Assembly (NCBI GenBank): GCA_020073495.1
Contig: JAIQFD010000004.1
Span: forward strand, 1-64,000
Direction of reading: 5' to 3'
Source of the DNA: Terriglobia bacterium
Lineage (GTDB): Bacteria; Acidobacteriota; Terriglobia; Terriglobales; Acidobacteriaceae
DNA length: 64,000 nt
The position numbers and the translations under genes are program-made. Within the stretch, counting starts at the first letter, position 1; the number at the start of each line of letters is the position of its first letter. Of this stretch, positions 46,656-62,527 are shown piece by piece. The notes beneath the pieces are model-generated. The model worked only from the letters and a program-made list of their open reading frames with translations, searched no databases and was not told where the DNA came from.

Positions 46656-46678
46656 GGCGAGGCCTCCGACAAATTTTG

Positions 46679-46707
46679 ATGGTAGGTCTGGCCCACGGGC
46701 AAGTCAA
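46679..46707 (-). promoter_or_regulatory. Promoter of the kinase-TPR gene
   Basis: Minus strand TTGACT, 17-bp spacer, TACCAT. The expected start is about 17 bases before the ATG at 46655. Confidence 0.5.
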
Positions 46708-46821
46708 TGAAAACACGGCAGCTCCGGGTTACGAGGTTGCGGCGGCAGGAACCGGTTGGGGCGCGGGGAGACGCATTTTTTCGCGACTTTTGGGATGCTT
46801 CGTGTTCCAATAGAGAGAATC

Positions 46822-46840
46822 AGTGTCGCCCTCCGACACT
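46822..46840. promoter_or_regulatory. Small inverted repeat in the tatA leader
   Basis: AGTGTCG and CGACACT are perfect 7-bp arms with a 5-base loop, just before the CAGGAG ribosome-binding site of tatA. Possible operator or leader hairpin. Confidence 0.35.
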
Positions 46841-46854
46841 TCCAGGAGATGTGA

Positions 46855-47037
46855 ATGTTCGAAGGACTTTTCCAACCGATGCATTTGCTGGTGATCCTGT
46901 TCATCGCCGTGCTGGTGTTCGGCCCCAAGAAACTACCGGAACTGGGCAAGGGGCTCGGCGAAGGCATCCGCGGCTTCAAGGACGCCATGAAAGATGGCGA
47001 AAAACCCGCTGACACCAAGACCGACACCAAGACCTAG
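46855..47037 (+). CDS. tatA: Sec-independent translocase subunit TatA
   Basis: 60 residues. One N-terminal span ([13 protein letters not shown]), then the [17 protein letters not shown] amphipathic helix that defines TatA/TatE, and a short charged tail ending with TDTKTDTKT. It forms the pore for folded proteins; two Tat substrates are encoded in this window. No tatB or tatC is adjacent. Start preceded by CAGGAG. Confidence 0.93.
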
Positions 47038-47163
47038 AACCTCGCCCGACAGCAAACCAGGCATTCATCCGAAATCTTCTCCCGCAGTTGAGGCCGTAAT
47101 TCCCTGGTGACGATTGGCCGGGGGATGCGTCTATCCCTCATCTGCCGAGGGTGAGGTGTTTCT

Positions 47164-47604
47164 ATGGGTAGTGTCACGAATACCGTCCTGCACGAAGCCG
47201 CGGTCGAGAGCGACAACGAAGTCAAGCGGACGACGGTGATCGGCGTCGGCTCGGTGTGGTTCGCCATCGCCCAAGCCGCCTGCGCAACCACGGTCTTCCT
47301 GAAGTCCGTCGCCATCGTGCTGGGGGTCTCCGTGGTATCGGCGGCGGCGGCACTGGAGCTGTTCCATACGCCTGCGGCGCGCATCATCCTGGTGTTATTT
47401 GCGGTGGGCGGAGCCGGCGCCAACCTGTACGTGGTCTGGAATACGTGGAGGCTGCGCCGCAATCCTGCGTCGCGGTGGCGCCTGCGGCCGCTGAGCACCT
47501 CCGAACGACGGCGCATCGCCATCGCCCTGGCTACTTCGATCCTGACGTTTGTGGTCCTGGGAGTCGAGGTCTGGGCGCACCTGATCCTGCACCCGCGGGG
47601 CTAG
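47164..47604 (+). CDS. Four-span membrane protein of unknown function
   Basis: 146 residues with hydrophobic segments near 24-42, 45-65, 72-90 and 117-140, and a basic cytoplasmic stretch WRLRRNPASRWRLRPL between the third and fourth. The tail-to-tail neighbour is the anti-sigma gene; the two stop codons share a CTAG palindrome at 47601-47604. A role with the sigma/anti-sigma pair is possible but not shown. Family not recognised. Confidence 0.6.
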   Translation: MGSVTNTVLHEAAVESDNEVKRTTVIGVGSVWFAIAQAACATTVFLKSVAIVLGVSVVSAAAALELFHTPAARIILVLFAVGGAGANLYVVWNTWRLRRNPASRWRLRPLSTSERRRIAIALATSILTFVVLGVEVWAHLILHPRG

Positions 47605-47840
47605 CCGGCGCCAACTTCCGCCGCCAGCCGCTTCATAAGCCGTTCGTGGAACCCGATGGGAAGATGGAAGGTGCGCTCGTCGGCGATGAGCACCAGCACA
47701 TTGTGCGTGGAATCCACCAGCGCGGCGCAGTGCTTGCAGTTTTCCAGATGGGCTTCTATCTCGCGGCGCAATTGCGGATCGAGGTCGTTCTCGAGATAGT
47801 TCGAGATCTCCTGCCACACGTCTTTGCAGTGGATCACCAT
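47601..47840 (-). CDS. Zinc-dependent anti-sigma factor (zf-HC2)
   Basis: 79 residues. The zinc motif is H-x3-C-x2-C in AHLENCKHCAAL, with another His-Cys near the N-terminus (VIHCKDVW). It has no membrane span, so it is a soluble anti-sigma of the RsrA/ChrR type in which loss of zinc or oxidation of the cysteines would free the sigma factor. It overlaps the sigma gene by 7 bases (ATGGTGA), the usual coupled arrangement. Confidence 0.88.
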   Translation of the reverse strand: MVIHCKDVWQEISNYLENDLDPQLRREIEAHLENCKHCAALVDSTHNVLVLIADERTFHLPIGFHERLMKRLAAEVGAG

Positions 47841-48451
47841 CCCTGCACCTTCTTCATCTGCCGAGAGGAAGCGGGTAAACGCTCCACCAGCATGTCGCGC
47901 AAACGCAAGCGGGCGCGAAATAATCGCACCTTGACGGTGGCCTCGGTCAGATCGAGGATCTCGGCCGTCTCCGCGATGGTCATCTCCTCCATGTCGCGCA
48001 GCACCAGGACTTCACGGTACTTCTCCGGCAGGCGGTCCACCGCTCTCTCGATCTCCTCGCGGACCTCCTTGCGTTCCAGGACGTCGGCAGGCAATTCGCG
48101 CCAGTCGGCGATCTGCAAAGGCGTGTAGCCGGAATCCTCGCCCTCGCGCTCGTCGTCCAGCGACTCCAGGTGCTCGGCCAGGCGCTTGCGGTAGCGCATG
48201 CGGGCCTCGTTGAGGGCGATCTTCACCAGCCAGTGGTGAAAGCGGGACTCGCCGCGGAAGTCCTTCAGGGCACGAAACGCCTTGAGGATCGCCTCCTGCG
48301 CTACATCCTCGGCATCGGCTTCGTTCTTGAGCACAGAGTAGGCCACCAGGTAGACCGTGCGCTCGTGCGGCTGGATGAGCTGGTAGAACAGCTCGCGTTC
48401 ACCACTCTTGATGCGTGCGATCAGCCGCGCTTCGGCCTGGTCATGAAGCAT
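47834..48451 (-). CDS. ECF-type RNA polymerase sigma factor
   Basis: 205 residues. Region 2 reads HERTVYLVAYSVLKNEADAE and DVAQEAILKAFRALKDFRGE; region 4 reads LPEKYREVLVLRDMEEMTIA then ETAEILDLTEATVKVRLFRA. A linker of about 25 acidic residues separates them. The start at 48451 (MLHDQAEARL) gives a normal N-terminus; upstream in-frame codons include the promoter region. A perfect CTGTAAC direct repeat lies 35 bp upstream and a CRP-like site further out. Confidence 0.92.
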   Translation of the reverse strand: MLHDQAEARLIARIKSGERELFYQLIQPHERTVYLVAYSVLKNEADAEDVAQEAILKAFRALKDFRGESRFHHWLVKIALNEARMRYRKRLAEHLESLDDEREGEDSGYTPLQIADWRELPADVLERKEVREEIERAVDRLPEKYREVLVLRDMEEMTIAETAEILDLTEATVKVRLFRARLRLRDMLVERLPASSRQMKKVQGW

Positions 48452-48485
48452 GGGGCACACAGGTCCCGGGTCAGGGATGACGACG

Positions 48486-48503
48486 GTTACAGAGAAGTTA
48501 CAG
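48486..48503 (-). promoter_or_regulatory. Pho-box-like direct repeat upstream of the ECF sigma gene
   Basis: On the minus strand, CTGTAAC-TTCT-CTGTAAC: two perfect copies of the half-site seen at phoB, pstS and pstC with the same 11-bp period. No good -10 box follows at the usual distance, which lowers confidence in function. Confidence 0.5.
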
Positions 48504-48534
48504 GAATGGGGAAATATTACGCGGGACGGACCAG

Positions 48535-48550
48535 GGTGACCAGCATCACA
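48535..48550. promoter_or_regulatory. CRP-like site in the sigma/nuclease intergenic region
   Basis: GGTGA-CCAGCA-TCACA. On the minus strand TAATAT at 48519-48514 could be a -10, but it is closer than the usual class II distance, so assignment to the sigma gene is uncertain. Confidence 0.4.
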
Positions 48551-48597
48551 GCACCGAGCAGGCGTGCGCCGGCGTTGCCCGACAAGACTGAGGTAGT

Positions 48598-48655
48598 GCC
48601 GGGCTTCAGCCCGGCGATCAGCTGCCACGAATGAACCGGCTTCAGCCGCTGAGGC
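48598..48655. repeat. Dispersed palindromic repeat
   Basis: GCCGGGCTTCAGCCCGGC forms a hairpin and is followed by CGGCTTCAGCCGCTGAGG. Related to the GCTGAAGxGCCGCAC repeats at 14770-14810 and 55391-55415. Confidence 0.5.
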
Positions 48656-48670
48656 CCGAGCCCCTTTTTG

Positions 48671-48686
48671 GGTGACCCGCATCACA
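48671..48686 (+). promoter_or_regulatory. CRP-like site upstream of the PD-(D/E)XK gene
   Basis: GGTGA-CCCGCA-TCACA. TAACAT at 48708-48713 places the centre at about -41 and the start on the ATG at 48720, suggesting a leaderless, activator-dependent transcript. Confidence 0.6.
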
Positions 48687-48719
48687 GCCCCTGGATCGGA
48701 GGTCGGCTAACATCGCAGG

Positions 48720-49217
48720 ATGCCATCCTGGGAAAAGCTCCTCCATCCGTTCATGCGCAGCCCGAAGCGCCGGGGCGAGTGGGCGGAAGCGGCGTTCACA
48801 GCCAAGGCGATGGGCCAGGGGCTGACTGTCTGCAAGCCCTGCAGCGAGTTGGAGCCTTTCGATTTTGTCGTGTTCAATGTCCGGCGAGCCATGAACCGCG
48901 TGCAGGTGAAATCAGCATGGAATCGCGCTCCAGGCCTGCAAGGCTACGGCGTTGGCACCACGAATCGCAAACGTTTTGATCGCGCTCACTTCGACTTTCT
49001 TGTGGTAGCCCTGCCCCAGCAAGACGTGTGGTACGTCATTCCCGCCGACGCAGTGCACGGCCTGAGCAAGTTTCGTCTCTATCCAGCGGCGCCAAAGCGC
49101 AAGAAGACTCCTAGGGATTACGAGCAGTACCGCGAGGCCTGGCACCTGCTGACCGGCGACGAGCCCGGCGCCTGGGCCCGATACCAGCGCTTCACCATCC
49201 ACGCGGGCACCGAGTAG
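48720..49217 (+). CDS. PD-(D/E)XK nuclease-family protein
   Basis: 165 residues. RRGEWAEAAFTAKAMGQGL gives the helix-1 glutamate, FDFVVF the acidic residue on strand 2, and RVQVKSAW the (D/E/Q)xK element, together the core of the PDDEXK_5-like family. The rest is beta-rich and ends with a Trp-rich segment (GAWARYQRFTIHAGTE). It is a stand-alone gene with no methyltransferase or CRISPR partner, so restriction is not implied; the role is unknown. Confidence 0.75.
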   Translation: MPSWEKLLHPFMRSPKRRGEWAEAAFTAKAMGQGLTVCKPCSELEPFDFVVFNVRRAMNRVQVKSAWNRAPGLQGYGVGTTNRKRFDRAHFDFLVVALPQQDVWYVIPADAVHGLSKFRLYPAAPKRKKTPRDYEQYREAWHLLTGDEPGAWARYQRFTIHAGTE

Positions 49218-49600
49218 GACGATTGCGCACCCACGCTATACAAATCCAGATTTTGCGCGTGTATTTGTCTCCAGGGAGTTGCGGTGGGAGGAAAGACCCA
49301 CCGCAGCAACGCGGAGAGCCCCACCCAACAAAAAGCGCGTTGGGTGGGGCACCCGGCATCGCACATTGATTGGAAGTTAATTGAACGGCTGGATTCGCGA
49401 ACCGCGCCCAGGAAAACGTGGGAGTGTTGGTGGGAGTGAGGATGCGAACGCGTCTTGTGGTCGCTGATCTGCGGGCTACAATATGTTGGGGGTGCGGTCC
49501 TAACTTGTGCTAACGGCTGTTATCGCTCGTTGAGCCGACCAGATGCGATCTAGGATTGCCAGAGGTGCTCTTGGGCAAACGAGCCAGGACGGCCGGAACT
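49218..49600. other. Intergenic region with two hairpins
   Basis: GCGGTGGG/CCCACCGC at 49281-49304 and the 12-bp stem GCCCCACCCAAC/GTTGGGTGGGGC at 49318-49350, the latter followed by ACCCGG. The second belongs to the GGTGGGGCACCCG repeat family also seen at 55485 and 55770. No coding sequence is seen. Confidence 0.5.
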
Positions 49601-52363
49601 CTATTTCGAACTGAGCGCCGCTGTTCGTGTCGCTAGCGCGCGCTCCAACTCCGTGAAGATCCCTGTCGCCGATTGCGGTCGCCGCTCCGGCTCCGGCGCC
49701 AAGCTGCGCGTGAAAAATTCCTTCCAACTCTCGGGCGCCCATGGCAGGTGGACCGCCACAGGGGTAAAGCGCCCAGCAAACATCGCCTCCCGCCATTGCG
49801 GCGAACCCTCAACCGGAAAGGGTAATCGCCCAGTGAGCGATTCGTAGAGCACAACCGCCAGCGCCCACAGGTCAAAAGCCGGAGTGGGAGCGCAGCCTCG
49901 CATCTGCTCTGGGCCCATGTAGGGCGCCGTACCCACGACCACCCCCGCCGTGGTGTCGCGAGTGGCCTGTGTGTCCTCAGTCACAGTCTTAACCAGGCCG
50001 AAGTCGAGGATTTTTGCGACCTCGCCATCCTCGTTGCGGGCCAGGAAAATGTTCTCCGGTTTCAGGTCGCGGTGGATCAGCCCCCGCCGATGGCCAGCTT
50101 CCACGGCTGCGCAAATGCCGCGAAAAACTTCCAGCACCCGCTCCGGCGACAGGCGTCCGGCCCGCTGGATCTCTTTGCGGAGCGAGCAGCCGTGCAGCAG
50201 TTCCATGATCAGGAAGGCGCGCGAACCCGCGAGGCCGTAGTCGAACACGGTAACGACGTTTGCGTGCGAGAACGCGGCAGCTGCCTGAGCTTCCCGCCGA
50301 AATCGCTGGGCGGCGTTGGTGCTGCCGATCAACTCCTCAACGATCAACTTGGCGGCGACGTCGCGCTCCAGGGCGGTATCACGCGCCGCGTACACCGCTC
50401 CCATGCCGCCCCGCCCAATGCGTCGGTCAAGGCGATAGCGGCCGGCAAGCAGGCGCGGCGCTCGCACCTTCACCAAGGAACAGGCGTGTTGCGAGCAGGC
50501 CGACGCGCCCGGTTCGTAACACCGCCCGCATTCGGGGCATTCGAGGAACGCCTCTTCGGCGCCCACCGCCACCTGCGGACGCTCCAAAAGCAATGCCAGG
50601 CTAGAAGCGGTAGAGCCTAGCAGCTCGAGATCTTCACGACTGTACGGCTCTTCCGACCGTTTGGGCCCAAGCGCCAGCATAGCCTCGCGCTTGCCTCCGG
50701 CCATGGCAATCGGCATCAGCACATCCAGCCGGTACTCCAGCAGCAGCGCGGATTCGGCCGCCGGCAGGTTTTGTCCCCACTCGCTGGCGGGCGCGATGCG
50801 CAGCGGAGCTTCCAGCAGGCGGATCATGCCGATGAACTTGGCATTGGCCACTAACTGCGGCGGTGCCGAACTGGCCGGCGATGCGGCGATCGCGGTAAAT
50901 AGCGATTCTCCCGCTTCCTTGACGTAAACGGCGGCAAATTCTGCGTGCAGCGCTGTTTCCACCTTGGCCGAAACCTGGGCGGACGCCCGCTCGAAGCTGC
51001 TGGCAGCGCGCAGATCATCAACAATGCTGCGCAGCAACATTTGTGCGTCGTAGCGGTCGCGGAAAAAGCGGCGATCCAGCGCGTCCAGCCAGGCCTGTCG
51101 CTTGCTATGCGCCAACAGCGCCAGTGCGGCCAGCGCACCGTAAACCCAGCCGCGCGAGCGCAGGATCTCGGCTATTGTGTTCTGGCCGTGAGCGAGCAGG
51201 TCCATCAGCAGCAGCAAGGCGAGCACTGGCACCGCCGCGAGCAGCGCACGGCGCGCGACCGCATACTGCAGGCCCTGGCGCACGATCACGCGTACATCGA
51301 AGATGCGATGCCGCAGCACCGCATAGGTCAGTGCGCAGGGAAAAGTAAAGCTGACGATAATGAGCAGCGGTCCAAGTACGGGGTGAATGTAGGGCCGCGC
51401 AATCGGGTGGTTGGCTCCCATGTTGAGCGCAAACAACCCGGGAATGGACACGATCCAGGAAACTGCCAGTCCCGCCACCACCACGCGCACGCGCCGCCGC
51501 TCGTTGACGTCATCCAGCCTGCGATAATTTGCGGCCAGCACTAACAATGCTCCCGCTGCAAACACAAGAAACAAAGGAATGGTCGTCGGTATGCTCCAAT
51601 TCGGAATGCCGTCTCGCAGAGCCTGCGGCTGGTACGCGATGCGATACCAGTCGGGAAACGAGACCATGAACATAACCAACACCAGCGCCCACGCCGCCGC
51701 ATAGGGCCAGAGCGAGCGAAACAGCCGGCGGGGAAACATGGCGCAGAATGTGAACATAATCCCAGCCATGCCCGCGACATTACAGAAAAACGGGAACACC
51801 AGTAGCAACGCCACCGCTGCCGGCAAATGCCGCAAAACCACTGCGGTGCCCGTGCCGAACAAACCGGCTGCACTGACAACGCAGGCCACCAGCCAGGCCG
51901 CCAGCAGCGCCACCTTGTCCCGTGGCCGTTGCCATAGGATGAGAAAGACCAGCCCAAAGCCGAGGACTTTCAGCGCCATTATGACCGGGAAAACGGAGTT
52001 AGGTACTATCCCCTGTCTCGTGCGTCGGGTCGAGACCAGTCTTGCGCTCAGGGGTTTCCCGTCGCGTTCCGCCTCCACCGCCTGAGGTTTGCCGATTTCC
52101 ACTTGTGCCCGCACCGCCACCCAACTGAAGTAATTCCGTGTGCGGATCCCGTCCACCCGAAGCAGCGCGTCGCCGGGGCGCAGTCCGGCCCGCTCGGCCG
52201 GTCCCCCCGGAGCAATACGGAGCAGGATCATCCGATCGCTGGCGAAGTCGAAGTTGGCGCCAACTGCTTCCGGCCCGAAGCGGTTGCAGTAGACGATAAA
52301 CGCGCCGTACAGGACGAACGTTGCGGCCAGGAACCACAGCCACCACGGCGCGCGCTCGCCCAT
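49601..52363 (-). CDS. PDZ - multi-TM - GAF - zinc ribbon - serine/threonine kinase fusion
   Basis: 920 residues. After TM1 (about 8-26) comes a PDZ-like domain (about 38-110, PGGPAERAGLRPGDALLRVD), then about eight to ten spans (about 125-430), a GAF-like domain (about 455-600), a zinc ribbon (CPECGRCYEPGASACSQHAC) and a C-terminal Hanks kinase with GRGGMGAVY, VAAK, HRDLKPENIF and DFG. The activation segment has YMGPEQ instead of YMSPEQ. The kinase is at the C-terminus, unlike most bacterial kinases of this class. The start at 52363 is favoured by GGGAGG; ATG at 52384 is in frame. Confidence 0.85.
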   Translation of the reverse strand: MGERAPWWLWFLAATFVLYGAFIVYCNRFGPEAVGANFDFASDRMILLRIAPGGPAERAGLRPGDALLRVDGIRTRNYFSWVAVRAQVEIGKPQAVEAERDGKPLSARLVSTRRTRQGIVPNSVFPVIMALKVLGFGLVFLILWQRPRDKVALLAAWLVACVVSAAGLFGTGTAVVLRHLPAAVALLLVFPFFCNVAGMAGIMFTFCAMFPRRLFRSLWPYAAAWALVLVMFMVSFPDWYRIAYQPQALRDGIPNWSIPTTIPLFLVFAAGALLVLAANYRRLDDVNERRRVRVVVAGLAVSWIVSIPGLFALNMGANHPIARPYIHPVLGPLLIIVSFTFPCALTYAVLRHRIFDVRVIVRQGLQYAVARRALLAAVPVLALLLLMDLLAHGQNTIAEILRSRGWVYGALAALALLAHSKRQAWLDALDRRFFRDRYDAQMLLRSIVDDLRAASSFERASAQVSAKVETALHAEFAAVYVKEAGESLFTAIAASPASSAPPQLVANAKFIGMIRLLEAPLRIAPASEWGQNLPAAESALLLEYRLDVLMPIAMAGGKREAMLALGPKRSEEPYSREDLELLGSTASSLALLLERPQVAVGAEEAFLECPECGRCYEPGASACSQHACSLVKVRAPRLLAGRYRLDRRIGRGGMGAVYAARDTALERDVAAKLIVEELIGSTNAAQRFRREAQAAAAFSHANVVTVFDYGLAGSRAFLIMELLHGCSLRKEIQRAGRLSPERVLEVFRGICAAVEAGHRRGLIHRDLKPENIFLARNEDGEVAKILDFGLVKTVTEDTQATRDTTAGVVVGTAPYMGPEQMRGCAPTPAFDLWALAVVLYESLTGRLPFPVEGSPQWREAMFAGRFTPVAVHLPWAPESWKEFFTRSLAPEPERRPQSATGIFTELERALATRTAALSSK

Positions 52364-52475
52364 GGGCGCCTCCCAACACTTCATACCTATCAGACCGCTC
52401 GACCATCAACAGAGGGGTCGGGTCGTGAGTGGGGATAAAGCTGTATAGACGGTAGGAGTGATCGAGTTCTTCAGC

Positions 52476-52491
52476 AGTGACGGCAGTCACA
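52476..52491 (-). promoter_or_regulatory. CRP-like site upstream of the PDZ-kinase gene
   Basis: AGTGA-CGGCAG-TCACA, 110 bp before the gene on the minus strand. A TATACA box at 52447-52442 lies slightly further than the usual distance. Confidence 0.45.
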
Positions 52492-52510
52492 GTGGTTGGT
52501 GGTCACCCGT

Positions 52511-52535
52511 TAACTGTCGATAAATCGCCTGAGCA
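52511..52535 (+). repeat. Left part of repeat unit R7, split by the IS1595 element
   Basis: TAACTGTCGATAAATCG plus the target duplication CCTGAGCA. The right part continues at 54846. Rejoined, it matches R3 and its tail at about 41 of 48 bases. Confidence 0.65.
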
Positions 52536-52548
52536 CACGATTATTTAC

Positions 52549-52577
52549 TTGACGCAACACCTATATCTACGGATACT
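52549..52577 (+). promoter_or_regulatory. Promoter of the passenger hydrolase, rooted in the inverted repeat
   Basis: TTGACG within the left inverted repeat, a 17-bp spacer, then GATACT. This would make the passenger self-sufficient for expression after transposition. Confidence 0.45.
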
Positions 52578-52659
52578 CGCAGCAATGGGCTCCCGTTCGA
52601 CCTGTCCACGCCATATCTCCGCCGTCTATCTCCCCCCCCGTCGGTCTGGTAGGCAGCCA

Positions 52660-53661
52660 ATGACAATCGGGCTTGGAGTGCTCTGCGAGAGCGGCAAGTG
52701 CATCGTCATGGCTGCGGATACACGCGGCACGTTCCCTGATGAATTGCGAATCGCGGCGCATGAGCAAATAGGAAAGCAGTTCGACTTGCCGCGTCGCTTC
52801 GGCTGCAACATAGCGGGCGACTCTGGCTTGTGCTGGGGAGTGAATTCGGAACTGCATCAGCAAATGGAATCGCTGCCAGAAGAGTTCGGTCCCGACCACA
52901 TCAGGAATGCCATACGTGAAGCGCAGTTCTACGAGTTAACCAACCTAGCCAACTACGCGCTCAAGCGTCATCTCGGCATCACGGTTGGCGAGTGGAAAAG
53001 CGAGACACTCCCCGCCTGGCTCCGAGAGCAGGGAAAGAAAATAATCAATACAACGACCCTGCCGATGCAAATTGCTGTTGGCGGGTTCTGTAGCAATGGT
53101 GCGGCTCTGTGGCAGGCCGATTTCGCAAATCCGCCAGATATCCGGGAGTGGTCAGCCATCGGCAGCGGATCGCCAGCAGCCGTGGATGCATTGTGCCGGA
53201 GCAAAACGGAAGTACACATCACCCTGCAACGCGCCGTGTTCAGCGTGACGCTAGCCCTTCGCGCGGCAAGGCGCCACGCGAAGAAGATGAACCCTAACAA
53301 TCCTGATATCGGGAGGCCAGCGGATTATGTGGTCATCACTCCGAAGTACTTCCGGCGACTTCCGGCCCAACATCCCGACTTGCTGAAGATGATGCGAAAA
53401 TACAGCAACAAGACCCTCGATGACTTAGATCGTGATGATGACGCGCGGCTGGCACTTCTGCGCGCGATGTATTTCCCAGGAACCACACAGATGGAGTATG
53501 CGCTTGGGTTGCGTCGCCCCGTGTTCGACAAGTTTGTGTGGCGCGGGAAAGGAATTCACTGTGATGGGGAGACGTTGCGGATATTGAGCGGCACGTCGCT
53601 TAACGTCGCGGCCAGTTTACAGAACTTGCAGCCGGGAGCATTGGAATTGGAGCCAAACTGA
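52660..53661 (+). CDS. Proteasome/HslV-like Ntn hydrolase carried by the IS1595 element
   Basis: 333 residues from ATG 52660. MTIGLGVLCESGKCIVMAAD then TRGT is the opening of proteasome beta/HslV proteins: removal of Met1 would expose Thr2 as nucleophile, D20 fits Asp17, and K39 in IGKQFDLP fits Lys33, followed by CNIAGDSG. WSAIGSGSPAAVDAL (about 164-178) matches HslV AIGSGG. The C-terminal 120 residues are an extension not found in HslV. An in-frame ATG at 52585 would add a 25-residue N-terminal leader. The last 106 bases are overlapped antisense by the small gene at 53556. Substrate and unfoldase partner unknown. Confidence 0.75.
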   Translation: MTIGLGVLCESGKCIVMAADTRGTFPDELRIAAHEQIGKQFDLPRRFGCNIAGDSGLCWGVNSELHQQMESLPEEFGPDHIRNAIREAQFYELTNLANYALKRHLGITVGEWKSETLPAWLREQGKKIINTTTLPMQIAVGGFCSNGAALWQADFANPPDIREWSAIGSGSPAAVDALCRSKTEVHITLQRAVFSVTLALRAARRHAKKMNPNNPDIGRPADYVVITPKYFRRLPAQHPDLLKMMRKYSNKTLDDLDRDDDARLALLRAMYFPGTTQMEYALGLRRPVFDKFVWRGKGIHCDGETLRILSGTSLNVAASLQNLQPGALELEPN

Positions 53662-53765
53662 ATCAGCGCGTGATAGGCGGAGCTAGAGGGGATTGTGACC
53701 TTGAAGACGTTGAACTTCGCACACGACGGACATTCGAAAGAAAACTCGATTACGTAATCCTTCAC
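53556..53765 (-). CDS. Small zinc-ribbon peptide coupled to the IS1595 transposase
   Basis: 69 residues starting GTG, overlapping the transposase stop as GTGA. Cysteine pairs CPSC (12-15) and CKFC (46-49) suggest a zinc ribbon. Tight coupling to the transposase argues it is real and may act in transposition or its control. Its 3' half is antisense to the end of the hydrolase gene. Confidence 0.55.
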   Translation of the reverse strand: MKDYVIEFSFECPSCAKFNVFKVTIPSSSAYHALIQFGSNSNAPGCKFCKLAATLSDVPLNIRNVSPSQ

Positions 53766-54643
53766 GCAGTAAGCCTTTCGAACGTGAGCGTGGGCGCGGT
53801 AACCATGTGGCGCAGGGTATCGAGGAATAGATCGTGATTCTTGCGGCGGTTAAACCGGAACGTCATTTCGTCCAAGTAGGCGGGGAGATGCTTGGCACTG
53901 ACCTTGTGCCAGCTTCCCATGATGCCGCGCTTGAGCAGAGAGAATGCGCTTTCGACTGTGTTGGTGTGAATATCACCTTGGACGTAAACCTTGTCTCGAT
54001 GCCGGATGGTTTTGTGCTTCGACCCATGGACCCCGGCTTTAATCATCGCTTTGGGATAGGCAGGGAGTTCGTCGGTGACCATCACTTCCACATCGGTGCT
54101 GACGTTATCTCTGATGTACTGCGCCAACGTGCCGCTCTTGGCGTCCGACGCATGGAAGAACCGCAGATCTCCGCCGCGCTGCCGGATACCGATGACGATT
54201 TCCTTGTTCTTCTTCTGCCCCATGCCGCGCTCTTTGCCACCTACATACGTTTCGTCCATCTCTACCGTGCCATCCAGCATGGGACGCGCTTCCTTCATGG
54301 CGGCGCGGAGTCTGTGGCAGAGATACCATGCGGTTTTGTAGCTGACTCCGATTGTGCGCTTGATTTGATTAGCAGAGATTCCCTTACGCGCCTCGCAGAG
54401 CAGAAGAGTAACGGTGAACCACGTTTGCAGCGGAAGGTGCGAGTCGTTAAAGATCGTGCCGGACAAAACGGAAAATTGGTACTCACATTCGCGGCAGTCG
54501 AATTGTTTGCGAGAATGAATCCACAGAATGTCTTTGCTCTTGCAGCGAGGGCATTCAACGCCATGAGGCCAGCGAAGTTTCGTAAGGATTTCGCGGCATT
54601 TGTCGTCGGTATCGAACATCCGATTGAGGTCTAGGAGAGTCAT
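53762..54643 (-). CDS. IS1595-family transposase (ISXO2-like)
   Basis: 293 residues. N-terminal zinc ribbon C31-x2-C34 ... C50-x2-C53 followed by FSVLSGTIF; catalytic DDE core with D130 in VEMDETYVGGKERG, D191 in VTDELPAYPKA and E231 in HTNTVESAFSLLKRG, ending in RFNRRKNHDLF. The gene looks intact. Its ATG at 54643 shares a CATG with the divergent small gene at 54642. Confidence 0.93.
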   Translation of the reverse strand: MTLLDLNRMFDTDDKCREILTKLRWPHGVECPRCKSKDILWIHSRKQFDCRECEYQFSVLSGTIFNDSHLPLQTWFTVTLLLCEARKGISANQIKRTIGVSYKTAWYLCHRLRAAMKEARPMLDGTVEMDETYVGGKERGMGQKKNKEIVIGIRQRGGDLRFFHASDAKSGTLAQYIRDNVSTDVEVMVTDELPAYPKAMIKAGVHGSKHKTIRHRDKVYVQGDIHTNTVESAFSLLKRGIMGSWHKVSAKHLPAYLDEMTFRFNRRKNHDLFLDTLRHMVTAPTLTFERLTA

Positions 54644-54782
54644 GGCAGAACCTCACAAGAAAAAGCAGAAGCGGAAGATGGGGAGGCCCCTTGAAGACGT
54701 GCCCCTGCGGAAGCTTGTAAGCAGCGTAAAGAAAGAGCTGCGGATGCAACTCGCGGCTGCCGAGAAACCAAAGCGCGACTGA
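54642..54782 (+). CDS. Small basic peptide gene divergent from the transposase
   Basis: 46 residues, MAEPHKKKQKRKMGRPLEDV then PLRKLVSSVKKEL, very rich in Lys/Arg, with a possible helix. TAGGAG lies 6 bases before the ATG, whose first two bases overlap the transposase start codon on the other strand. A DNA- or RNA-binding role is possible. It may regulate the transposase. Confidence 0.45.
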   Translation: MAEPHKKKQKRKMGRPLEDVPLRKLVSSVKKELRMQLAAAEKPKRD

Positions 54783-54845
54783 GGCTTACCGTCATGCAAG
54801 CCAAAGATAGCAACTCTGTTTCGTTGTGTCAAGTAAATAATCGTG

Positions 54846-54880
54846 CCTGAGCACATGTGTGCGCTTTTTCTTCGCCTTTT
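54846..54880 (+). repeat. Right part of repeat unit R7
   Basis: The duplication CCTGAGCA, then CATGTGTGCGCTTTTTCTTC, matches the right arm and tail of R3. Confidence 0.65.
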
Positions 54881-55177
54881 GGACCGCAATCACGCCGCAG
54901 TCCTGACAGTTTGACAGTTGTTGACAGCATTTTTGCTAAATTCTCTATACGAGAAAATTCGAACACATTTTTGTTGAAAATACTGTCAGGTACTCTCAAT
55001 GCGGGCTTAAATCTTGCTTCGCGACTCGTGCGATCGCACGCCGGTTTTCGATGCGCGAAAACTGTATCCAAAACTGTAACCACCACCTGTTTCTACCAAT
55101 GGATATGGATGGATACGTATGAATACAACTTGTTGGAAACGTTGCAACCCGTTGATTGCAAACGGCTGATTCCGAAA
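54854..55177. other. AT-rich intergenic stretch with an orphan promoter
   Basis: Tandem TGACAG units at 54903-54927 lead into TTGACA (54921), a 17-bp spacer and TCTATA (54944), a good sigma70 promoter with no recognisable gene downstream. AATTCTC/GAGAA form a loose inverted repeat next to it. It may be a leftover promoter of the lost integrative element. Confidence 0.4.
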
Positions 55178-55222
55178 CTCTTAATCAGTAGGTTGAAGGT
55201 TCGATTCCTTCCGCGCTCACCA
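55178..55222 (+). other. 3' fragment of tRNA-Lys(CTT), probable integration site
   Basis: Anticodon loop CTCTTAA, then TCAGTAGGTT, the T arm GAAGG-TTCGATT-CCTTC, acceptor strand CGCGCTC, A and CCA. The 5' half (acceptor GAGCGCG, D arm) is absent: the bases before the anticodon loop (CCGAA) do not pair with TCAGT. A 3' half of a tRNA next to an integrase is the standard trace of tRNA-targeted integration. Confidence 0.75.
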
Positions 55223-55239
55223 GCTTTTTCAACAACTTA

Positions 55240-55392
55240 CTAATTCACCAGTTCCGGGTTGTGACGCAGATTGTGACATTCGGCCTGCGCGACGTTCCTA
55301 CTGTCGATAGCTTGCCGGATCGCCTCAATTCCCGGATGCTGGTAAATCATCGCCGTCTGAGCACTGGAATGTCCCAGTGCTTTCGTCACCGC
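55240..55392 (-). pseudogene. int: Tyrosine recombinase (integrase) C-terminal remnant
   Basis: The last 50 or so residues survive: KALGHSSAQTAMIYQHPGIE contains the conserved His of LGHSS and the catalytic Tyr. The upstream part is replaced by a dispersed repeat at about 55391. It is adjacent to the tRNA fragment, as expected for the att-proximal integrase of an island or prophage. Confidence 0.75.
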
Positions 55393-55926
55393 GGCGCTGA
55401 AGCGCCGCACTACCTCCTTTTCGATGCGCAGTGGCGCAGCCCGCAGCGGATCCCACCAGGTCTCGCCTACGGCGCGACTAGGGTGGGGCACCCGCAACAT
55501 ATTTTGCTCTCCGAAAGGGTGGGGCAGCCCCCTGCCCTAGTTGCCTCGCACTGGCGGGTGGCCGGGGCTTTCGCCTATCACCGATTATTCACCTAATCAA
55601 ATCCTTGAGGGCACAATTTTCGCCCCTTCGACCTCGCTGAGGGTAGGGGTCCTTCGACTCGGCGCGCCCAAACCCGGGGCGCACCTCGCTCAGGATGACC
55701 CCATTTAAAGTGTGGTAGTTGCGACCCCTTCGACTTCGCTCAGGGGAGCCCCTGTCTCGCCTCCGGCGCGACAAGGGTGGGGCACCCGCACTTCAGTAAC
55801 ATATTGATGTGAAAGTACTTACGCTCGGCGTGTCACCCCTCTCTGTGATGCTCCTCACTGCGGGATGCCCGTCTGGGGAGCAGCATAGTGTGTTGGTCAA
55901 TTCATACCGCGGTCATAGAGGCTGCC
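55393..55926. repeat. Region of dispersed repeats upstream of the carbamoyl-phosphate cluster
   Basis: It contains GCGCTGAAGCGCCGCACTAC, several GGTGGGGCACCCG-type pieces (near 55485, 55515, 55770) and a block from 55623 with CGACCTCGCTGAGGGTAGG, CTTCGACTCGGCGCG, CGCTCAGGATGACC and CTTCGACTTCGCTCAGG. The same families occur at 14519-14810. The last 85 bases hold the CRP-like site and promoter of the next operon. No gene is seen. Confidence 0.55.
55844..55859 (+). promoter_or_regulatory. CRP-like site upstream of the carbamoyl-phosphate operon
   Basis: TGTGA-TGCTCC-TCACT. CATAGT at 55884-55889 is a possible -10, 32.5 bp from the centre. Confidence 0.6.
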
Positions 55927-57282
55927 ATGAAAAAGGTCGTCATTCTCGGAGCGGCGGGGCGCGATTTTCATAATTTCAACGTCGTGTTCCGCCACGATCC
56001 CGCTTACCAGGTCATCGCGTTCACCGCCACCCAGATCCCCGACATCGCCGGCCGCAGTTACCCGCCGGAACTGGCGGGGCCTCTATATCCCAAGGGCATC
56101 CCGATCCTGGAGGAAAAAGAGCTGGAGAAGATCATCCACGAGCACGACGTGGACGTGACCGTCTTCTCTTACAGCGACATCTCGCACCAGAACCTGATGC
56201 ACCTGGGCTCGCGGGCGGTGGCGGCGGGCGCTGATTTCTGGCTGCTGGGCGCGAGGCGCACGCAGCTCGCGGCCAAGGTGCCGGTCATCAGCGTCTGTGC
56301 GGTGCGCACCGGATGCGGCAAGAGCCCGGTATCGCGCGCCGTGGCGGCGGAACTCCGGCGGCTGGGATGGAAGCCGGTGGTGGTGCGGCATCCCATGCCC
56401 TACGGCAACCTGGTGGCGCAGGCGGTGCAGCGCTTCGCGACGCTGGAAGACCTGGAGCGGCACAAGTGCACCATCGAGGAGCGGGAGGAGTACGAGCCGC
56501 ACATCGTGAACGGCACGACCGTCTACGCGGGGGTGGACTATGAGGCCATCCTGCGGCAGGCGGAGAACGAGGCGGACGTCATCCTGTGGGACGGCGGCAA
56601 CAATGACACGCCCTTTTACCGCTCCGATCTGGAGATCGTGGTGGCCGACCCGCACCGTCCCGGACACGAGCTGGCTTACTATCCGGGCGAGGTGAACCTG
56701 CGCCGGGCGCAGGTGGTGATCATCAACAAGGTGGATACCGCCGCCATCGAGTGCGTGGACGTGGTGCGGCGCAACGTGCGGCTGAACAATCCGGCGGCGA
56801 AGGTGATCGAGACGGCGTGCCGCGTCAACGTGGCGGACCCGGAGCAGGTCCGCGGCAAACGCGTGCTGGTGGTGGAGGACGGCCCGACGCTTACCCACGG
56901 CGAGATGCCGTACGGAGCGGGCGTGGTAGCGGCGCGGCAGTGCGGCGCCGCCGAGCTGGTTGACCCGCGGCCCTATGCGGTGGGCTCCATCCGCACCACC
57001 TACGAAAAGTATCCCCACATGAACCGGCTGCTGCCCGCCATGGGCTACAGCGACATGCAGCGCCATGAGCTGGAAGAGACCATCAACAGCGTGCCCTGCG
57101 ACCTGGTACTGGTGGCCACGCCGGTAGACCTGGCACGCATCATCAAGCTGAACAAACCCGCGGTGCGCGTGACCTACGAGATCGAGTGCATCGCCAGGCC
57201 GACGCTGGCCGAGGTGCTCGTCGAATTCACCAGCATCACCGCGCACCAAAGGCTGGAAGCGGTTGCGGGAGCGGCGTTATGA
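55927..57282 (+). CDS. Cyclic 2,3-diphosphoglycerate synthetase-like GTPase
   Basis: 451 residues. VISVCAVRTGCGKSPVSRAV holds a P-loop variant (TGCGKS), VILWDGGNNDTPFYRSDLEI and VIINKVDTA follow. The family is annotated after the archaeal cDPG synthetase, but bacterial members commonly sit beside arginine or carbamoyl-phosphate genes, so its reaction here is uncertain. It heads the operon; its TGA overlaps the next ATG. Confidence 0.8.
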   Translation: MKKVVILGAAGRDFHNFNVVFRHDPAYQVIAFTATQIPDIAGRSYPPELAGPLYPKGIPILEEKELEKIIHEHDVDVTVFSYSDISHQNLMHLGSRAVAAGADFWLLGARRTQLAAKVPVISVCAVRTGCGKSPVSRAVAAELRRLGWKPVVVRHPMPYGNLVAQAVQRFATLEDLERHKCTIEEREEYEPHIVNGTTVYAGVDYEAILRQAENEADVILWDGGNNDTPFYRSDLEIVVADPHRPGHELAYYPGEVNLRRAQVVIINKVDTAAIECVDVVRRNVRLNNPAAKVIETACRVNVADPEQVRGKRVLVVEDGPTLTHGEMPYGAGVVAARQCGAAELVDPRPYAVGSIRTTYEKYPHMNRLLPAMGYSDMQRHELEETINSVPCDLVLVATPVDLARIIKLNKPAVRVTYEIECIARPTLAEVLVEFTSITAHQRLEAVAGAAL

Positions 57283-58253
57283 CGAACGACTTCCTCTCCA
57301 TCCGGGACTTCACGCCCCACGAGATCCGGCAACTGCTGGACCTGGCGCGGCACATCAAGGCGCACCCGCTGGACTACAGCAAGGTGCTCGAGGGCAAGAC
57401 GCTGGCGCTGATCTTCGAGAAGCCGTCATTGCGCACACGGGTGAGCTTCGACGTCGGCATCCAGCAGCTGGGCGGGTTTTCCGTGTACCTGTCACCGGCG
57501 GAAATCAGCCTGGGCAAGCGGGAGTCGGTGCACGATGTGGCCAAGAACCTGGAGCGCATGGTGCAGGGGATCATGATCCGCACCTTCGCGCACGAGATCG
57601 TGGAGCGCATGGCGGAGCACGCCGCCGTCCCTGTGATCAATGGGCTGACGGATTTCAGCCACCCGTGCCAGGCCATGGCCGACTACCTGACCATCGAAGA
57701 GGTCAAGGGGAGGATCGCCGGGCTGAAGGTCGCGTATATCGGGGACGGCAACAACGTGGCGCACTCGCTGATGTTCGCGGGAGCGCAACTGGGCGCGCAC
57801 GTGTGGATCGCGACGCCGCCGGGGTACGAGCCCAGCGCCGACGCAGTGAAGTGGGCGCTGGTGCGCGGGGTGCAGACTGGAGCCACGTGCGCGCTCACGC
57901 ACGACCCCGCCGAAGCGGCACAAAACGCCGACGTCATCTACACCGACGTGTGGACCAGCATGGGCCAGGAGTCGGAAACGGAGATCCGGCGCTACGTTTT
58001 CTCGGGGTATCGCGTGGATGCGGCCCTGTTCGCGCGCGCCAAGCACGACGCCATCTTCATGCACTGCCTGCCTGCCCACCGCGGCGACGAGGTGACCGAC
58101 GACGTCATCGACTCACTGCACTCGGTGGTCTTCCAGCAGGCGGAGAACCGCCTGCACGCGCAGAAGGCGATCCTGTTCGAGCTGATGAAGGACATTTCTG
58201 TGGAATCGCCGCGAGAAGCGCAGAAAACGCCGGCCTTGGAGCTGGTGAAGTGA
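57279..58253 (+). CDS. argF: Ornithine carbamoyltransferase
   Basis: 324 residues. Carbamoyl-phosphate loop EKPSLRTRVSFD (SLRTR variant of STRTR), FSHPCQAMAD, and the ornithine-binding FMHCLPAHRGDEVTDD. It converts ornithine and carbamoyl phosphate to citrulline, or runs in reverse in arginine fermentation (ArcB). Lying next to carbamate kinase and ornithine aminotransferase favours a catabolic role; arginine deiminase is not in the window. Start overlaps the previous stop (ATGA). Confidence 0.93.
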   Translation: MTNDFLSIRDFTPHEIRQLLDLARHIKAHPLDYSKVLEGKTLALIFEKPSLRTRVSFDVGIQQLGGFSVYLSPAEISLGKRESVHDVAKNLERMVQGIMIRTFAHEIVERMAEHAAVPVINGLTDFSHPCQAMADYLTIEEVKGRIAGLKVAYIGDGNNVAHSLMFAGAQLGAHVWIATPPGYEPSADAVKWALVRGVQTGATCALTHDPAEAAQNADVIYTDVWTSMGQESETEIRRYVFSGYRVDAALFARAKHDAIFMHCLPAHRGDEVTDDVIDSLHSVVFQQAENRLHAQKAILFELMKDISVESPREAQKTPALELVK

Positions 58254-58266
58254 CGAGGACGAACCC

Positions 58267-59262
58267 GTGCCCAAGACAATGCTGATCGCGGTCGGCGGCA
58301 ACTCCCTGATCCGTGCCGGGGAAAAGGGGACCGACGGCGAGCAGTTGGCGAACACGCGGCGGACCGCGGCGGCCATCCTCGGACTCATCCGCGACGGCTA
58401 CCACCTGGTGATCACGCACGGCAACGGCCCGCAGGTCGGGGCCGACTTGCTGCGGTCGGAGCGCGCCTCCGACCAGGTACCGAGCCACACCCTCGACGTC
58501 TGCGGGGCGGCCACGCAGGGCGAGATCGGCTACCTGTTGTGCCAGTCGCTCGACGATGAACTGGCGGCGGCGGGCCTGCACGTGCCGGTGGTGAGCGTGG
58601 TGACGCAAACGGTGGTCTCGCGAGACGATCCCGCCATGCAGCACCCCAGCAAACCCATCGGGCCTTTCTACTCGCGCTCCGACGCCGAGGAGAAAAAGCG
58701 GCAGTTCGGCTGGGCCATCGTGGAGGACGCGGCGCGCGGCTACCGCCGCGTGGTGCCATCGCCGGAGCCCATCGAGATCGTCGAGCAGGAGGTCATCCGC
58801 GGCCTGGTGAACGCCGGCGTGCTGGTGGTGGCCTGCGGCGGCGGCGGCATCCCCGTGGTGCGGGAGAACGGCAAGCTGCTGGGGGTGGAGGCGGTGATCG
58901 ACAAAGACCGCGCCTCGGCGCTGCTGGCCTCGGAACTGGGCGTGGACATCTTCGCCATCTCCACCGACACCGATTTCGTCTATCTCGACTACAAGAAGCC
59001 AACCCAGCGGCCGATCACGGTCGCTACGGCGGCCGAGATGGAGGCCCACCACAAGGAAGGCCATTTTCCGCCCGGCAACATGGGCCCCAAGATCGAGTCG
59101 GTACTGCGCTTCCTGCGCGACGGGGGCAAGGAAGCGGTCATCACCTCGTACGAACATCTCTACGAGGCGGTGGCCGGACGCACCGGCACCCGCATCGTCC
59201 CCGGAACCCGAGCCGTTACCCGAGAAGAACGGGAGCACGAGATCTCAACGATCGGCAGGTGA
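58267..59262 (+). CDS. arcC: Carbamate kinase
   Basis: 331 residues from GTG 58267. AVGGNSLIRAG, VITHGNGPQVGADLL, VACGGGGIPVV, AVIDKDRASALLA and PPGNMGPKIESVLRFL are the family signatures. It makes ATP and carbamate from carbamoyl phosphate and ADP, or the reverse. The location between two carbamoyltransferases is noteworthy because carbamoyl phosphate is the shared metabolite. Confidence 0.95.
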   Translation: MPKTMLIAVGGNSLIRAGEKGTDGEQLANTRRTAAAILGLIRDGYHLVITHGNGPQVGADLLRSERASDQVPSHTLDVCGAATQGEIGYLLCQSLDDELAAAGLHVPVVSVVTQTVVSRDDPAMQHPSKPIGPFYSRSDAEEKKRQFGWAIVEDAARGYRRVVPSPEPIEIVEQEVIRGLVNAGVLVVACGGGGIPVVRENGKLLGVEAVIDKDRASALLASELGVDIFAISTDTDFVYLDYKKPTQRPITVATAAEMEAHHKEGHFPPGNMGPKIESVLRFLRDGGKEAVITSYEHLYEAVAGRTGTRIVPGTRAVTREEREHEISTIGR

Positions 59263-59265
59263 GCC

Positions 59266-60231
59266 ATGCAGACTGACACCATCCCGCGGAGCACGACAAA
59301 CGGAGGCAGCGGACAGGACACGACGCGGCTGAAGCACGTCGTCGAGTCGCAGCAGTTCACCGTGCCGCTGCTGATGGAGCTGTTCGACCGCTCGCGCGGC
59401 ATGGAGCATGTGGTGGAGCGCGGGGGCACGCTGGACTACCAGAACAGGATCATGGCCACCCTGTTCTATGAGCCCTCGACGCGCACCCGCTTCTCCTTCG
59501 AGGCGGCCATGCACCGGCTGGGCGGGCGCGTGCTCTCCACGGAGCACGCGCGCGCGTTCTCGTCGGAGATGGAGGGAGAGCAGGTCGAGGACTCGATCCG
59601 CATCATCGGCGGATACTCCGACGTGATCGTCATCCGGCATCACACGGAAGGCGGGGCAAAGCGGGCTTCGGAGGTCTCGCCGGTGCCGGTGATCAACGCC
59701 GGCGACGGCGAGGGCGGGCAGCATCCCACGCAGGCGCTGCTCGACCTGTACACCATCTACCGCGAGCGCCCGCTGGACGGGCTCAGCGTGGCCTTCATCG
59801 GTGAGCTCGACAAGGGACGGACCGCGCGTTCGCTGGCGTACTTGCTGGCAAAGTTCGAGCGGGTGAAGATCTATTTCGTCGCTCCCGCGGAATTACAGAT
59901 GAAACAGGACATCCTGGAGTACCTCGACCGCCACGGTGTCCGATACGAGCTGGCGTCTCAAATCGACGGCATCGTGGGCGAAGTGGATGTCGTGTACCAG
60001 ACGCGCATCCGTCCCGAGCGCGTGGCCGATGTGCAGGCACTGCGCCGCTTCGCCATCGATTCCAGCGTCCTGCCAAGAATGAAGCGGAACGCGATGATCC
60101 TGCACCCCCTGCCCCGCACCGTCGAGCTCGACAAGACCGTCGATAGCGACCCGCGCGCACTCTATTTCCGCCAGGCAACGAATGGGCTATACGTGCGCAT
60201 GGCGCTGCTGACCATGCTGTTGGACAGGTAA
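59266..60231 (+). CDS. pyrB: Aspartate carbamoyltransferase, catalytic chain
   Basis: 321 residues. [35 protein letters not shown] (HPTQ) and [10 protein letters not shown] (HPLPR) separate it from ornithine carbamoyltransferase. It makes carbamoyl-aspartate for pyrimidines. A disordered N-terminus of about 20 residues precedes the fold. No pyrI is adjacent. In this operon it may draw on carbamoyl phosphate made by carbamate kinase, or act on a different amine; both are inference. Confidence 0.9.
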
Positions 60232-60251
60232 CCGTAGTCATAAGGGAGAAC

Positions 60252-61466
60252 ATGCCGCCCACGATCGAAAGTACCCGCACCCAGGAACTCATCGAACTGG
60301 AAAACACCTACGGCGCCCACAACTACCACCCGCTGGACGTGGTGATCGAGCGGGCCGAGGGCGTCTGGGTCTATGACGTCGAAGGCAAGCGCTACCTGGA
60401 TTGCCTGGCATCGTACTCGGCGGTCAACCAGGGACACTGCCATCCCAAGATCCTGCAGACGCTGGTGGAACAGGCGCGGAAGGTCACGTTGACCTCGCGC
60501 GCCTTCCGCAACGACCAGTTGCCAATGCTCTACAAGGAGCTGCACGAGCTGACCGGCTACGACATGGCGCTGCCCATGAACTCGGGCGCCGAGGCGGTCG
60601 AAACCGCGATCAAGACGGCGCGCAAGTGGGGCTACAAGGTGAAAGGCATCCCCGACGGCAAGGCGGAGGTCGTGGTCTGCGCCAACAACTTCCACGGCCG
60701 CACCATCACCGCGGTCAGCTTCTCGACGGACGCGCAGTACCGCGACGGCTTCGGGCCGTTCACACCGGGCTTCAAGGTCATCCCCTTCGGCGACAGCAAG
60801 GCGCTGCGCGACGCCATCACGCCCCACACCTGCGCCTTCCTGGTGGAGCCCATCCAGGGCGAGGCCGGGATCCTCATTCCGCCGGCCGGCTTCCTGCGCG
60901 AGGCCGAGGCCATCTGCCGCGTGAACCGCGTGCTGCTGATGTGCGACGAGATCCAGTCGGGCCTGGGACGCACCGGCAAATTGTTCGCCTACATGCACGA
61001 GGGGATCAAACCCGACATCCTCATCGTCGGCAAGGCGCTGGCGGGCGGGTTCTATCCGGTCTCGGCGGTGCTGGCGTCGAAGGAGGTTCTGGGGGTGTAC
61101 AAGCCGGGCGACCACGGCTCGACCTTCGGCGGCAACCCGCTGGGCTGCGCTGTCGCGCGCACCGCGCTGCGCGTGCTCGTCGAAGAGGAGATGGTGGAAC
61201 GCTCGGCGCAACTGGGCGCGTACTTTCTCGACCGGCTGAAGTCGCTGCGCAGCCCCGAACTGAAGGAGGTGCGCGGCCGCGGGCTCTGGATCGGCATCGA
61301 GATGACAGGCAAGGCCCGGCCGTACTGCGAGGCCCTGAAGGAAGAAGGCATCCTGTGCAAGGAGACGCATGACCACGTCATCCGCATCGCGCCGCCGCTG
61401 GTCATCACCCGCGAGGAGATCGACTGGGCGTTCGAGCGGATCCGCAAGGTCATCGAGAAACATTGA
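60252..61466 (+). CDS. rocD: Ornithine--oxo-acid aminotransferase
   Basis: 404 residues, class III PLP enzyme. [26 protein letters not shown], the aspartate of [16 protein letters not shown] and the PLP lysine in [20 protein letters not shown], then [13 protein letters not shown]. It converts ornithine to glutamate semialdehyde, feeding arginine and ornithine carbon into glutamate. A 5-base AAGGGAG precedes the ATG. Confidence 0.94.
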
Positions 61467-61468
61467 TG

Positions 61469-61484
61469 TGTGAGCGGCGACACT
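61469..61484 (+). promoter_or_regulatory. CRP-like site after rocD
   Basis: TGTGA-GCGGCG-ACACT; second arm imperfect. AATAGT about 29.5 bp downstream of the centre could be a -10 for the gene at 61566. Confidence 0.4.
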
Positions 61485-61565
61485 GCGGCTCCGGCCAGTT
61501 TGTGAAATAGTTGGCGGTGGGGATGGGCTGTGCGCCCTTCCTCTTGCCGACCGAGGAGGTCCCCC

Positions 61566-62521: not shown

Positions 62522-62527
62522 TTACAT

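Follow-up and report, generated by a model that had tools for sequence, protein, structure and literature searches.

Positions 52536 to 54845 of the 64,000-nucleotide stretch that we analyzed (the window; positions 1 to 64,000 of contig JAIQFD010000004.1 from a Terriglobia bacterium) are an intact IS1595-family element with the gene content of an autonomous transposon, whose passenger is, going by its modeled structure, a proteasome beta-fold N-terminal-threonine hydrolase, putative by function. Genes of this family fill the same slot across one IS1595 transposase clade, are replaced there as whole cassettes, and also sit in a second, IS1-type transposon family.

An earlier note, made from the letters of the DNA, had described an IS1595 transposon with firm boundaries, and the inverted repeats, the 8-bp duplication, and an intact transposase were all found. 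The 23-nt terminal repeats were 96% complementary, and both flanks carried the identical direct repeat CCTGAGCA, 8 bp being the length of the IS1595 target duplication. The transposase matched NF033547 (IS1595; 183.6 bits, cut-off 75) and PF12762 (E = 6.8e-31; 107.8 bits, cut-off 27), and its zinc ribbon matched PF12760 (E = 2e-12; 47.3 bits, cut-off 25.4). IS1595 elements with passenger genes are a known kind.

The same note had proposed a proteasome/HslV-like hydrolase as cargo. Thr2, Asp20, Lys39, the IAGDSG turn, and the AIGSGS motif on which it drew are all present, but the spacing is not that of proteasome beta subunits: the passenger reads Thr1/Asp19/Lys38 when counted from the nucleophile, placing Asp and Lys 2 and 5 residues farther from Thr1 than in Thr1/Asp17/Lys33. 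Profile similarity was weak, at 21.1 bits to PF00227 (E = 2.6e-4; slightly under the cut-off of 22.4) and 20.9 bits to TIGR03634, the archaeal 20S beta model (E = 2e-4; far under its equivalog cut-off of 224 bits), and a phmmer search of the PDB returned only three weak matches, all to proteasome alpha subunits (best E = 0.062). Across the passenger family, 17 of 24 members matched PF00227 at E values up to 0.1 (best 5.2e-10). An AlphaFold2 model built on an alignment of 21 proteins (the window passenger and relatives) had a mean predicted local distance difference test score (pLDDT) of 79.6, with most of the core above 90 and residues 273 to 333 unreliable. All 50 rows shown by Foldseek for this model were proteasome subunits (best E = 1.3e-10). 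VIA-align superposed it on the Thermoplasma acidophilum 20S beta subunit with Z = 23.3 (2.5 Å over 196 residues) and residue 2 on Thr1; Anbu entries gave Z = 21, and the best structural rows were archaeal and bacterial 20S beta subunits. The N-terminal nucleophile (Ntn) sandwich, without which the proposal would have had no footing, is therefore recovered in the model along with Thr, Asp, and Lys. Since Asp20, Lys39, and Gly168 are invariant in the 24 homologs aligned and the fold was recovered, we regard the weak PF00227 match as more than chance. The window model has an extra helix (residues 119 to 131) following H2, which is absent from a model of the L024 passenger, a member of the other of two builds described below (pLDDT 82.5; Z = 25.2 to the Archaeoglobus 20S beta subunit).

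The catalytic residues, whose absence from homologs would have counted against the note, are nearly always kept across the family. In the 24-row alignment, from which a 25th row with a broken 5′ end (L049) was dropped, the nucleophile was Thr in 23 rows and Ala in one, and among 50 further loci (59 minus 5 lacking an alignable N terminus and 4 duplicates) it was Thr in 48 and Ser in 2. The Ala occurs in an otherwise intact frame (L034:5193-6113, minus strand), which is perhaps a binding-only form. Six passenger pairs with ~35 to 53% protein identity had nonsynonymous differences per site (pN) of 0.29 to 0.45 and synonymous differences (pS) of 0.78 to 0.86; pN below pS argues for a constrained protein, though synonymous sites are saturated, and points to purifying selection on relatives of the window passenger, which itself has no relative close enough for the test. 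Broken passenger copies also occur (L023, L047, and L049). A C-terminal tail (SDSQTSED and similar) was considered as a shared motif and set aside: it is probably antisense of the transposase end, given that by their coordinates the passengers of L024, L025, and L029 overlap the transposase 3′ end.

To find how regularly the passenger accompanies its transposase, IS1595 loci were gathered by transposase similarity alone (the best 80 of 109 from genome contigs plus 13 from viral contigs), and a passenger profile made from obvious members was run on these 93 loci. It matched 25, all within one transposase clade of 37 tree rows (Shimodaira-Hasegawa-like approximate likelihood ratio test [SH-aLRT], 96); the tree was a quick one, in which four rows were long and 13 of the 45 inner branches carried a star. 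Among informative transposase-drawn members of the clade, the gene was present in 26 of 28, a count that includes the element on contig C7 and leaves out the window as the starting point (27 of 29 with it), as well as six tree rows added for carrying the gene (L186, L191, L195, L214, L222, and L233); two members truncated at contig ends (L022 and L051) were not informative. For neither of the two members lacking the gene (L103 and L104) was a pair of ends found. None of the 64 other transposase-drawn loci had a passenger-type gene; 10 of these were placed on the tree, the remainder being unplaced and at most 54% identical to the window transposase, and at least eight end near the transposase (L036, L048, L062, L078, L085, L096, L099, and L101). 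Clade members with named sources were Acidobacteria-type (Acidobacteriaceae, Acidobacteriales, Terriglobia, and similar).

The passenger also recurs between inverted repeats inside other IS1595 elements, where the note had proposed to look for it. A consensus scan of ends found the gene enclosed by recognizable ends with 8/8 duplications in 20 of 25 IS1595 loci; the duplication was 7/8 in L026 and 4/8 in L029, and L031, L045, and L067 lacked one end. Outside the clade, three elements whose transposases had 63 to 71% identity (L030, L044, and L015) carried other passengers, and their identical duplications indicate that they moved without the gene of the clade. By eye, the same slot outside the clade (L015:3647-6009, L044, L050, L054, and L064) holds membrane-bound-looking proteins. 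Several separate elements had the same or nearly the same 8-bp target (ACTGAAGT in L024, L025, and L037; CCATTTCT in L034 and L038; CCTGAGCA/CCTTAGCA in the window, L014, and L015), which suggests a target preference.

Within the clade, pairwise comparisons show replacement of passengers as whole cassettes. L034 and L038, whose titles place them in the same assembly, have transposases 94% identical and DNA 87% identical from base 1 to the transposase stop at base 1096, followed by no detectable similarity until the last 36 bp; their passengers are of different builds and have no BLAST match (best E = 0.33). DNA similarity likewise ends at the transposase stop in L040 and L102 (transposases 91% identical) and 4 bp before the transposase end in L024 and L025 (transposases 94% identical, passengers 26%). 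The two builds, distinguished by whether an extra segment follows H1/H2, are mixed on the transposase tree, where 10 changes between them were counted, a total to which the six rows chosen for their passenger gene also contribute. The passenger of L024, an IS1595 element, was 53% identical to one in an IS1-type element (on contig C1, below), more than to any IS1595 passenger compared.

Three divergent passenger copies occur in the genome of the window: IS1595 elements carry two of them, and an IS1-type transposon the third. A search with the passenger sequence alone found one copy, and the family profile added the other two, both transposon-borne. The second IS1595 element, on contig C7, was found by its element DNA; it has a transposase 86% identical to that of the window, its own inverted repeats, and a CCTTAGCA duplication, and in the same slot a passenger with 20% identity to the window passenger and the same N terminus and active-site residues. 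The third passenger, on contig C1, was spotted as a weak PF00227 match (13.2 bits) adjoining an IS1-type transposase; the element is 4,925 bp long, with GGTAGTGGGTCAGTTT ends and a 7/8 duplication, and its cargo includes a TIR-domain protein (PF13676, E = 1.1e-11). On contig C5, a further element with IS1595 ends is flanked by a CCTTAGCA duplication and carries a passenger of another kind, which had no Pfam match.

In searches with the single passenger sequence, no relatives were found among genome contigs, viral contigs, plasmids, or phages, and a search of 299 genomes of the class returned only the passenger itself and L010; the family profile found many more. L010 is the nearest relative found (~30% identity), and no transposase was seen beside it. 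Genes around this relative (L020:1749-6845, 73-1476, and 11293-13038) resemble a weak STAND/AAA-type ATPase, DUF4062, and an S8 peptidase, and may be a defense island. A further candidate, L011 (E = 7.9e-4), has stops inside the frame and was taken as a chance match.

With the family profile, the superfamily, including hslV and Anbu-type genes, was found in 151 of the 299 class genomes (E up to 0.001), and in a sample of the phylum 8 of 297 genomes reached E = 1e-9, of which one lies outside the class. The 66 homolog loci are the distinct profile places down to E = 7.3e-9 once G245 and the three places in the genome of the window are set aside; Anbu-type genes are among them, and contig ends truncate some. 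An IS1595 or IS1-type transposase or fragment lay in the stretch of 31 of the 66 and within 500 bp in 28, four of the latter being matches of at most 140 residues (L182, L212, L220, and L231). Homolog and transposase were convergent in 21 cases, divergent in 5, and in tandem in 5. In L265, an IS1595 transposase cut by the contig end lay 553 bp off, and L175, L176, L177, and L179 are the same elements as L034, L038, L041, and L027. As a control, none of 20 true hslV loci had either type of transposase within ~4 kb; all 20 proteins matched both HslV models, and three came from genomes with a transposon-borne copy.

Eleven pairs of IS1-type ends were tested, and eight elements enclose the gene with 8/8 duplications, which places the same gene family, to judge from these sequences, in a second transposon family. 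Of the other pairs, L185 had a duplication of 4/8 (none) and L203 one of 7/8, and the ends of L209 failed to enclose the gene. Among the eight is L180, which has the gene between IS1-type ends in 1,069 bp, with neither type of transposase in the stretch. Cargo was listed for nine IS1-type elements, some open reading frames only being run against Pfam, and three had conflict-type genes: a TIR protein (L021), a HicA toxin (L192, E = 1e-7), and an MmeI restriction-modification enzyme (L197, E = 4.5e-25). A small conserved protein (KNPAAVALGRLGGLKGG...IAAKAAKARW and variants) was also seen near one IS1-type end in L185, L190, L192, L197, L207, L215, and L220; two copies run against Pfam had no match.

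Features of the window element and its flanks
Feature	Position	Strand	Remark
Left target-site duplication, CCTGAGCA	52528-52535		
Left terminal inverted repeat, passenger side	52536-52558	+	23 nt; relatives have similar ends, core GATTATTCACTTGAC
Possible in-frame N-terminal leader	52585-52659	+	25 codons from ATG; weak in window copy
Passenger, putative proteasome beta-fold Ntn hydrolase	52660-53661	+	333 aa
Passenger Thr codon	52663-52665	+	
Passenger Asp20 codon	52717-52719	+	
Passenger Lys39 codon	52774-52776	+	
IS1595-family DDE transposase, N-terminal zinc ribbon	53762-54643	-	293 aa; convergent with passenger
Small basic protein	54642-54782	+	46 aa; divergent from transposase; clade-conserved ...VPTRKLLASIKRDLR... 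protein
Right terminal inverted repeat, transposase side	54823-54845	-	23 nt
Right target-site duplication, CCTGAGCA	54846-54853		

The start codon of the small basic protein overlaps that of the divergent transposase, and the protein had no match in Pfam or NCBIfam. By eye, a VPTRKLLASIKRDLR-type protein stood at the same place in 23 of 25 clade rows shown (absent from L031 and L051), and most other IS1595 elements shown had a different small protein (MTTDEALKHIFHPKVV type) or none alike; it appears to be a third conserved part of the clade elements. Just outside the element, a fragment at 55240 to 55500 (minus strand) resembles by eye the C terminus of a tyrosine recombinase, and a tRNA search of positions 45000 to 64000 found none.

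The start of the passenger has a pattern of its own. The codon preceding the nucleophile was ATG, GTG, or TTG in all 24 aligned homologs and all 50 further loci. All 22 Val codons at this position were GTG and all 6 Leu codons were TTG, which marks it as a start codon and led us to reject a structural reason for Met, Val, or Leu before the nucleophile. In transposon-borne genes, the frame upstream was open (no stop in 25 codons) in 39 of 48, and the upstream in-frame stretch of the 48 loci was 44% Pro, Lys, or Arg, compared with 17 to 21% in the other two frames (P = 1.6e-9, Wilcoxon test, a value that overstates independence because the rows are related), so that an artefact of long open frames was also rejected. 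In the 25 loci where no transposase was detected, these residues made up 25%. Shine-Dalgarno words preceded the internal start in 29 of 48 loci; for control codons the rate was 9%. In 22 of 48 loci such a word stood before at least one upstream in-frame start, a figure for which several candidates were allowed and which is not directly comparable with the 9%. The pattern reads as two initiation sites in transposon-borne passengers, with a basic proline-rich leader before the Thr1 start. At the leader ATG of the window copy no ribosome-binding motif was flagged, and the pattern rests on the relatives.

Our first choice, which we put forward tentatively as quite possible, is that the passenger is kept as a mobile conflict hydrolase. 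Between the stop codon of the transposase and the distant inverted repeat, the element holds an exchangeable gene for a putative threonine hydrolase, from which methionine aminopeptidase would remove Met and free Thr1. With no unfoldase of its own, the enzyme would work as a peptidase or an amide-transferring enzyme. It would benefit the element or the host in contests with competitors, phages, or other elements, with new specificities arising and being exchanged in the manner of other accessory cargo. Until the short form is produced, the basic leader added by an upstream start might mask Thr1 or steer the enzyme. A conflict role would be consistent with passengers that diversify and are swapped, and with their neighbors in IS1-type elements, 3 of 9 of which (those with listed cargo) carry TIR, HicA, or MmeI genes; L010 lies near weak STAND/AAA-type ATPase, DUF4062, and S8-protease genes.

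Several observations weigh against it. PADLOC models matched none of 24 passengers credibly (best E = 0.0039, for one member), and the conflict genes turned up in IS1-type elements; none were seen in the window element or elsewhere among the IS1595 elements of its clade. Fast divergence may also reflect age and relaxed constraint, and the Ala-bearing L034 passenger, with its intact frame, would be catalytically dead. Nineteen homologs without a transposase had mostly housekeeping neighbors, including several Anbu-type operons, although a few PADLOC models did match there, so that defense is not a trait of the family overall. A bolder version, which seems to us distinctly improbable, has the proteasome fold converted into an effector that one lineage of small transposons carries about and exchanges: diversified threonine hydrolases would be made from two start codons, the basic proline-rich leader of the long form, which looks like proline-rich ribosome-binding peptides, would block the nucleophile or sense translation, and the short form, with free Thr1, would attack specific proteins of invading elements or phages.

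The main rival, unlikely in our judgment though the least so of the alternatives, makes the hydrolase an accessory factor of transposition that trims, degrades, or controls the transposase or transpososome, much as ClpX acts on MuA, or clears a host block to insertion. The near-fixed pairing in one transposase clade (26/28) fits such a factor, and the constant slot, the mostly convergent and often overlapping genes, the clade-specific small basic protein beside the transposase, and the presence of the gene in two transposon families all agree with it. It is harder to reconcile with transposases 94% identical whose passengers lack BLAST similarity (E = 0.33), with L030, L044, and L015, which moved with other passengers, and with L180, which keeps the gene between IS1-type ends without either transposase in the stretch. 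We give still less credence to an element-stability or host-manipulating enzyme with no role against invaders, whether by penalizing loss of the element or by acting on a protein of the host. Purifying selection on passengers and the lack of a fixed partner gene beyond the transposase and the small basic protein would suit it; no antitoxin-like partner was recognized inside IS1595 elements, and an addiction gene should not tolerate the broken copies that persist in L023, L047, and L049. Just as improbable is a plain hitchhiker, a gene for metabolism or protein quality that was acquired again and again and is useless to the element, for although IS1595 elements with passengers are familiar, 26 of the 28 clade members have the same gene family in the slot, swaps bring in another member of the same fold family (10 build changes on the tree), and the family is common to IS1-type transposons.

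Whatever the role of the hydrolase, an active site that is kept, a sequence that has diversified, and a gene swapped as a unit offer testable material on the proteasome fold beyond housekeeping degradation, and they provide a natural set of matched elements differing mainly in the passenger.

Compared with known IS1595 insertion sequences with passengers, a family reportedly treated in a paper of Siguier and colleagues, the window element is alike in its transposase, zinc ribbon, inverted repeats, 8-bp duplications, and passenger beside the transposase; it differs in that the passenger is a proteasome-fold hydrolase, clade-wide and exchangeable. The passenger shares fold and catalytic residues with 20S proteasome beta subunits, unlike which it scores far under the TIGR03634 cut-off, has extra helices, and is carried by a transposon; no alpha-subunit or ATPase gene lies in the element. 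HslV is likewise a proteasome-type threonine hydrolase of bacteria. The HslV models had no match to the passenger up to E = 10, only TIGR03634 being listed, no hslU was among the open reading frames of the element, and the true hslV of the genome is a separate gene (TIGR03692, 283.8 bits); HslV is not in the structural rows listed, which give no evidence either way on likeness. Anbu operons consist of circularly permuted ATP-grasp, Alpha-E, and transglutaminase genes; these are absent from the element, and such domains adjoin other homologs.

Fuchs et al. 2021 (PMC8665760) described 22 new proteasome homologs and, in the portion of the paper available to us, found no genomic contexts suggestive of a specific function and no propeptide outside proteasome beta and HslV; the word stem "transpos" is absent from that main text. 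Against this broad survey, dozens of homologs here have a well-defined setting in common: they occupy the passenger slot in two families of transposon. A close likeness, compared by eye with the available text of the paper, is to the Group II homologs, especially those with an insertion after helices H1/H2 (PHI, PMI-3, and PMI-4), which share the beta fold, Thr/Asp/Lys, and, in the window model, the extra helix after H1/H2; the leader and the transposon context set the passengers apart from them (PMC8665760, as available). In the open-access literature searched, with subscription papers and ISfinder outside its scope, no report was found of proteasome homologs as transposon passengers, and within that scope this slot is a setting in which proteasome-fold enzymes were not known. 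The phage-borne homologs PPH (~140 residues) and AAH, as given in the same portion of PMC8665760, are also proteasome homologs on mobile DNA, carried by phages and not by transposons. Transposons now join phages as vehicles spreading the proteasome fold.

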